Positions 12,761 through 41,221 of a stretch of 44,114 nucleotides of DNA are shown piece after piece. Source of the stretch: Candidatus Woesearchaeota archaeon (GTDB lineage: Archaea; Nanobdellota; Nanobdellia; Woesearchaeales; JAGWAF01); the NCBI GenBank assembly GCA_018303205.1, contig JAGVYP010000036.1:1-44114 (forward strand), read 5' to 3'. Numbering within the stretch: position 1 is the first letter of the stretch; every line of letters starts with the position of its first letter. The translations under genes and the position numbers were made by a program. The notes below the pieces were generated by a model, which was given only the letters and a program-made list of their open reading frames with translations, did not search any database and was not told the DNA's origin.

Positions 12761-12875
12761 TTTTTTGATGGTGTTGCCTTGTAGTAATAACTAGGAGAAC
12801 AGCCGATTCATGCAGGCTGTTCGACGCGAATGCTCCGATCAACGGAGGAGTAAATCTACGCAACACCATCAAAAG
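12761..12875 (+). ncRNA. Candidate structured RNA/intergenic element, copy 1
   Basis: 15-bp perfect outer inverted repeat TTTTGATGGTGTTGC/GCAACACCATCAAAA, then CTT bulge, GTAG/CTAC stem, hairpin AACAGCC-GATTCATGCA-GGCTGTT and hairpin CTCCG-ATCAA-CGGAG; internal motifs shared with 34971-35076. Confidence 0.7.
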
Positions 12876-12948
12876 ATGTAATTTAAGAGCGTTTTATAAT
12901 TGTTACATTCTCGAGAAGATTCATGAATAAAAAAATAAATAAAAGGGA

Positions 12949-34970: not shown

Positions 34971-35076
34971 AAGAATCATTGCGTAGCTAGGCTGCTCCGT
35001 TGATCGCAGATCTTGCGAAAAACAGCCTGCATGAATCGGCTGTTTTTCTGTTTTTGCTACAAGGCAATGATTCTTA
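34971..35076 (-). ncRNA. Candidate structured RNA/intergenic element, copy 2
   Basis: Minus strand: AAGAATCATTGC-CTT-GTAGC...AACAGCC-GATTCATGCA-GGCTGTT...CGATCAACGGAGCAG...GCTAC-GCAATGATTCTT; same internal motifs as copy 1 with a different outer stem. Confidence 0.7.
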
Positions 35077-40966: not shown

Positions 40967-41221
40967 ATGGGAAATTTTCAAATCCAACATGACAGGCCAA
41001 ACTGCATAGCTTGCGGAGTATGCGAATCCATTGCTCCAGAATTTTGGGAAATGGATAAAAATGATGGAAAATCCAATTTGAAAGCATGCAAAAAAGTAGG
41101 TCATGAAGAGCATCGCGATATTGACGAACATACTTTTGAAGAAAATAGAGAAGCTGCTGATCGCTGTCCTGTAAATATTATTCACATTGTTAACAAAGAA
41201 ACAGGAGAAAGGCTAATTTAA
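40967..41221 (+). CDS. Single-cluster 4Fe-4S ferredoxin
   Basis: NCIACGVCESIAPEFWEMD...DRCPVNIIHIV: CxxCxxC...CP. Confidence 0.87.
   Translation: MGNFQIQHDRPNCIACGVCESIAPEFWEMDKNDGKSNLKACKKVGHEEHRDIDEHTFEENREAADRCPVNIIHIVNKETGERLI

Follow-up and report, generated by a model that had tools for sequence, protein, structure and literature searches.

What are the two related segments that lie on opposite strands of this 44,114-nt stretch of Woesearchaeota DNA (the window), and at which level, RNA or DNA, does their common fold act? An earlier note on the sequence had proposed two related elements, and both are found where it placed them, copy 1 on the + strand and copy 2 on the - strand. The 24-mer AACAGCCGATTCATGCAGGCTGTT, which belongs to the hairpin that we call P2, occurs exactly twice in the window, with none expected from 100 shuffles. 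The element is a compact unit of about 104 nt, and its parts in the two copies are the following:

12767..12870, + strand: copy 1, whole structured core, a three-way junction (model match 12769-12868, 101.5 bits; BLAST match 12767-12870)
12767..12777, + strand: copy 1, 5' arm of the outer stem P1a (GATGGTGTTGC), pairing with 12860-12870
12778..12780, + strand: copy 1, conserved CTT bulge (CTT in 111/120 aligned copies)
12781..12784, + strand: copy 1, 5' arm of the inner stem P1b (GTAG), pairing with 12856-12859; G(G/T)AG covaries with CT(C/A)C
12794..12825, + strand: copy 1, P2 hairpin, with the loop GATTCATGCA at 12805-12814
12833..12850, + strand: copy 1, P3 hairpin CTCC/GGAG, with a probable tandem G-A and the apical pair C12840-G12844
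12856..12870, + strand: copy 1, 3' arms of P1b and P1a (CTAC, GCAACACCATC), from covariation
12871..12906, + strand: copy 1, approximate right end of what looks like a surrounding, decayed T2 miniature transposon (..GCGTTTTATAATTG, compare GGGTTTCATAATTGCC), from alignment with four other T2 copies of the same genome and from the T2 clade
34974..35072, - strand: copy 2, whole structured core (model match, 110.5 bits)
35017..35048, - strand: copy 2, P2 hairpin with the A-U form at its base and the loop at 35028-35037
34992..35009, - strand: copy 2, P3 hairpin (CTGC GATCAACGGA GCAG)

Copy 2 has the same orientation as both neighboring genes, and no TIR was recognized around it. Elsewhere in the window, an ORF at 40967-41221 (+) resembles a second single-cluster ferredoxin, as judged by eye only.

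Across the family, the fold is a three-way junction composed of an outer stem with a CTT bulge, the P2 hairpin with the loop GATTCATGCA, and the short P3 hairpin. P1a spans about 10-12 bp, is free in sequence and ends sharply; in 38 aligned copies from the genome that contains the window (hereafter, the source genome), 98.0% of its cells are paired and 8 of its 9 pairs show changes on both sides. The joining stretch that follows P1b usually ends in CA. P3 consists of 4 bp followed by opposed G-A and A-G and by a triloop closed with either C-G or G-C; mutual information pointed to this apical pair, and counts confirmed it. Copy 1 has tandem G-A/A-G at the P2 base, instead of which two A-U pairs are present in about half of the copies; a K-turn at this position was rejected because the pair adjoining the tandem G-A is Watson-Crick and covaries. 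Also rejected was the hairpin CTCCGATCAACGGAG in copy 1: covariation, including that of the apical pair, supports CTCC pairing with the second GGAG (12833-12836 with 12847-12850), although energy folding of copy 1 by itself favors the other register of P3.

The outer stems of the two window copies differ and yet are self-complementary in each, as originally noted, and compensatory covariation throughout the element is far above chance. In the 38 source-genome copies, both sides changed with pairing kept in 22 of 28 pairs, 95.0% of paired cells are standard (71.9% when shuffled), and double-sided changes are seen in 242 cells, compared to 65.3 after shuffling and to at most 41 when the partners were slid by 1-3 columns. 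Other genomes contributed 54 matches, in which pairing holds for 91.9% of cells, 25 of 28 pairs show changes on both sides and 375 cells are changed on both sides (99.6 when shuffled); this alignment was fitted to the model and leans towards it, the changes themselves being present in the sequences. Copies that fail to pair, named beforehand as evidence against a conserved structure, were thus sought in the source genome and in others, and the copies stay paired in both.

As RNA, copy 1 folds at -47.1 kcal/mol (z -6.7; opposite strand, -44.3) and copy 2 at -40.0 kcal/mol (z -5.3; opposite strand, -40.2), so that both strands of each copy fold well and energy alone does not pick the strand. G-T combinations exceed A-C mismatches (63 versus 22 cells; 39 versus 20 distinct contexts, each counted once, p=0.018), and since a neutral two-stranded process should yield both equally, the fold probably belongs to the + strand, on modest evidence that fits RNA and single-stranded DNA alike. 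These observations bear on the possibility that the element is purely selfish DNA, a reading that we regard as unlikely but serious, under which the core would be a domain inside MITEs that adopts its fold in single-stranded DNA or as a cruciform and aids transposition or inter-MITE recombination, with no host or RNA function. The rarity of G-U pairs (63 of ~3,190 cells), which we judge to be low for an RNA family, is in its favor and counts against an RNA reading. The excess of G-T, however, is contrary to a symmetric cruciform, and the combination of conserved loops and junctions with stems that vary freely is more suggestive of a folded strand that is recognized.

How widespread is the element? 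The covariance-model search that the earlier note had suggested, run with a model built from the 38 copies, returned 72 matches at E<=0.01 in the source genome (1.42 Mb), where BLAST finds about 40. A match to an existing Rfam family, which would have counted against the proposal, did not appear: none of the Rfam 15 covariance models reached its gathering score in the window, and permissive settings gave nothing over the element in the four copies tested. Nor was it described in any paper found by a literature search that had most subscription journals outside its scope. The family is undescribed, with some 70 copies scattered over the source genome. At the order level, 19 of 353 genomes are positive, mostly with multiple copies, and two other genomes of the same family as the source genome have none; the 4 positives in a class-level sample of 378 genomes all belong to the same order. 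A DNA pattern scan of 84,980 prokaryotic species recovered 46 stretches, 45 titled Woesearchaeota and the remaining one a MAG titled Euryarchaeota archaeon SM23-78, and the pattern found no copy in viral contigs; plasmids also had no copy. This patchy, usually multicopy distribution resembles that of a mobile element.

An ordinary cis-regulatory RNA, such as a riboswitch or a leader serving a defined regulon, is very improbable. A three-way junction with conserved loops would suit such a role, as would a variant found at the same place beside orthologous genes in two species, but there are about 70 copies, with mostly unrelated neighboring genes and a MITE context, and the sites differ between the source genome and its relative G002, none of the insertion sites compared being conserved. 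The variant itself consists of weak matches in G321 and G323 (L063:1501-1602 and L064:1501-1605) beside genes with 48.5% identity; its outer stem is identical, P2 is swapped for another paired hairpin, and the variant possibly extends over the beginning of an ORF for a secreted protein.

Side-by-side comparison of the flanks revealed several TIR types around the one core:

T1: GGTAAAGTCAAG
T2: GGCTAATATGAAACCC
T3: AGTAGAAGACA
T4: TTAGAACCTATC
T6: GGCTCTGTCCC / GGCTCTGTAGAAA

In a blind test, a TIR together with an 8-10-bp duplication was present in 17 of 113 copies, compared to 2 of 339 controls with mismatched left and right flanks; the target duplications are mostly 9 bp. Flank matching recognized a TIR in 25 of the 72 source-genome copies and none in the other 47, copy 2 included. 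The source genome also contains two DDE_Tnp_1 transposase genes with open transposase frames and TIRs matching those of core-bearing miniature elements:

L182:1076-2093 (G000:C66): autonomous DDE_Tnp_1 element of 1018 bp with exact T2 ends
L183:1073-2148 (G000:C1): autonomous DDE_Tnp_1 element with T6 ends (GGCTCTGTAGAAAA) and a ACCATTTC duplication

Autonomous partners of T1, T3 and T4 were not found in the source genome, and an IS1-type transposase (PF03400), considered as the partner for 9-bp duplications, was rejected as absent. T2-type ends with the core are also present in G298. Neither autonomous transposon was seen to contain the structured core, and therefore their transposition does not need it.

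The resemblance to prokaryotic MITEs derived from insertion sequences, as portrayed in passages of a review (PMC10969869), is close: these are short, non-coding and multicopy, with TIRs, target duplications and a cognate autonomous transposase in the genome. Here, TIRs with a target-site duplication accompany a minority of copies, and for T2 and T6 there is an autonomous DDE_Tnp_1 element with matching TIRs. Unlike the MITEs of those passages (PMC10969869), in which stable transcript folds are described and no such shared core appears, our elements have one covarying three-way-junction core common to several TIR types and present also in many sense-biased copies with no recognized TIRs. Copy 1, with a right flank that aligns with T2 MITEs, a degraded left end and a tree position inside the T2 clade, looks like a decayed member of the T2 miniature transposons. 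Because many copies reside in miniature transposons and copy 1 is a likely relic of one, the initial alternative, structured RNA or a transposon-related, hairpin-recognized DNA element, comes out as partly both; the earlier note was right that the element is structured and outside known RNA families and rightly left the DNA option open, and missed the high copy number and the carriage by MITEs.

Much of this also suits purely selfish DNA, namely, the TIRs, the target duplications, the patchy multicopy spread, one core with different TIRs, and other hairpin insertions nested in the loops of the core; on the other side are the lack of the core in the two autonomous transposons found and a strong sense bias of the TIR-less copies. 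Several kinds of nested and partial sequences were observed. Several copies contain a second inverted-repeat element (CAGATCTTTAATAAGATCTGGTAGAAAC...), frequently located at the loop of P2 or next to P3 (L025:5217-5314, L028 ~2030-2153, L029, L034, L039). Double-hairpin insertions in the P2 or P3 loop, varying in sequence and similar in shape, form nested palindromes (L107:976-1128, L178 ~1252-1400 and other aligned copies), for example, AAAAATC-GNA-GATTTTT followed by AGAAA..TTTCT. Isolated 3' halves (..CTCCGCAACAAC.., ..CTACGCAATGACTTTT..) downstream of one full copy at L027 ~2150-2260 suggest truncated repeats in a row. Hairpins within hairpins are familiar from the nested palindromic elements of Rickettsia and Wolbachia, to which these are similar in general description, with the nested hairpins here occupying the loops of a conserved junction. 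Elements of the HEARO / omega-RNA type are likewise mobile, multicopy and structured, often without an ORF; the present element shares these traits and has no Rfam match.

Orientation distinguishes the two classes of copies. Between same-strand gene pairs, with neighboring genes taken as simple longest-ORF calls, the source-genome copies are sense rather than antisense by 33:9; a split by TIR, made after this total had been seen and based on ends identified by eye, gives 30 sense versus 3 antisense for TIR-less copies (p=1.4e-6) and 3 versus 6 for TIR-bearing copies. A small sample of copies from other genomes shows no orientation bias (8 co,co versus 6 anti,anti). Sense copies start at a median of ~40 nt downstream of the stop codon. 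Terminator-like T-runs are few between the stop and the element: runs of T5 occur in 3 of 26 sense stop-to-element gaps and in 28 of 55 element-free gaps (first 60 nt), a contrast drawn without length matching (median spacers of ~40 nt versus 60 nt) that becomes marginal when whole gaps are compared (p=0.06 for T5, 0.03 for T6). The right flanks of source-genome copies are A-rich for ~80 nt (A ~0.5, against 0.39 before start codons without the element).

On a tree of the source-genome copies, TIR-bearing and TIR-less labels require 6 changes, compared to 20.8 when shuffled (for the tree alone, one further copy, C4:2144, was assigned to T3 by eye), so the TIR-less copies are mainly separate lineages, beyond worn TIR copies. 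Because these lineages amplify separately from those with TIRs, their excess of sense copies could come from a way of inserting that favors one orientation, or else from selection on orientation. In another explanation, the core might be a unit mobile in its own right, with its outer stem as the boundary, inserting strand-specifically in the manner of single-strand-hairpin transposons and only hitch-hiking in MITEs. The amplifying clades of TIR-less copies, their sense bias and an outer stem that in either class breaks off sharply at 10-12 bp are consistent with such a unit, and the inner-stem G(G/T)AG recalls the GTAG tag of REPs (PMC3733652). Like the GTAG- and CGTC-tagged palindromic repeats associated with RAYTs, the copies are dispersed, mostly intergenic hairpins with a G(T/G)AG motif and a possible effect on mRNA, but REPs are palindromes of 20-40 bp (PMC3733652), whereas the element is branched and ~100 nt long, and its GTAG, rather than being a conserved end tag, is paired inside P1b, is GGAG in most copies and varies across genomes (GAAA in G066, GCGA in a UBA525 contig). 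Further against an independent unit, no Y1 (RAYT) transposase (PF01797) was found at E<=0.1 in the source genome, which is 85% complete, and some TIR-less copies have possible remnants of further inverted ends (GGTCACCGTC.. on the left, ..GACGGTGACC on the right). On balance, we find this explanation improbable.

We therefore return to the reading that we prefer, to which we assign a probability of roughly 50%: the element may be a mobile structured cassette of Woesearchaeota whose RNA acts in transcripts. MITEs in general are mobilized in trans by transposases, and the TIR-bearing copies would have been moved in this way by DDE transposases encoded elsewhere. The core would be kept through the action of its sense-strand RNA inside transcripts; once folded, and perhaps in complex with a protein that contacts the conserved loops and the junction, this RNA might stabilize or define the 3' ends of transcripts or the boundaries between cistrons. 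The conservation of the loops on free stems, the sense bias and the scarcity of T-runs are indirect signs compatible with a transcribed RNA domain. We lean slightly towards some function at the RNA level; its specific 3'-end or intercistronic version is put forward tentatively, at clearly less than even odds. More speculative still, and in our estimate rather doubtful, is the broader proposal of a functional archaeal RNA of a new class, in which the three-way junction would be recognized by a dedicated protein or have an activity of its own, would travel as the cargo of several transposons, and would have been adopted across a Woesearchaeota genome as a sense-strand mark of gene ends, that is, a SINE-like, exapted RNA element.

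The small genomes of DPANN archaea are usually seen as lean, and yet one folded element is present in about 70 copies in a genome of 1.4 Mb. A conserved structured core common to unrelated miniature transposons is unusual, and the sharing of this core suggests that transposons can carry functional RNA in archaea. The alignment and the model make the element directly searchable and testable.
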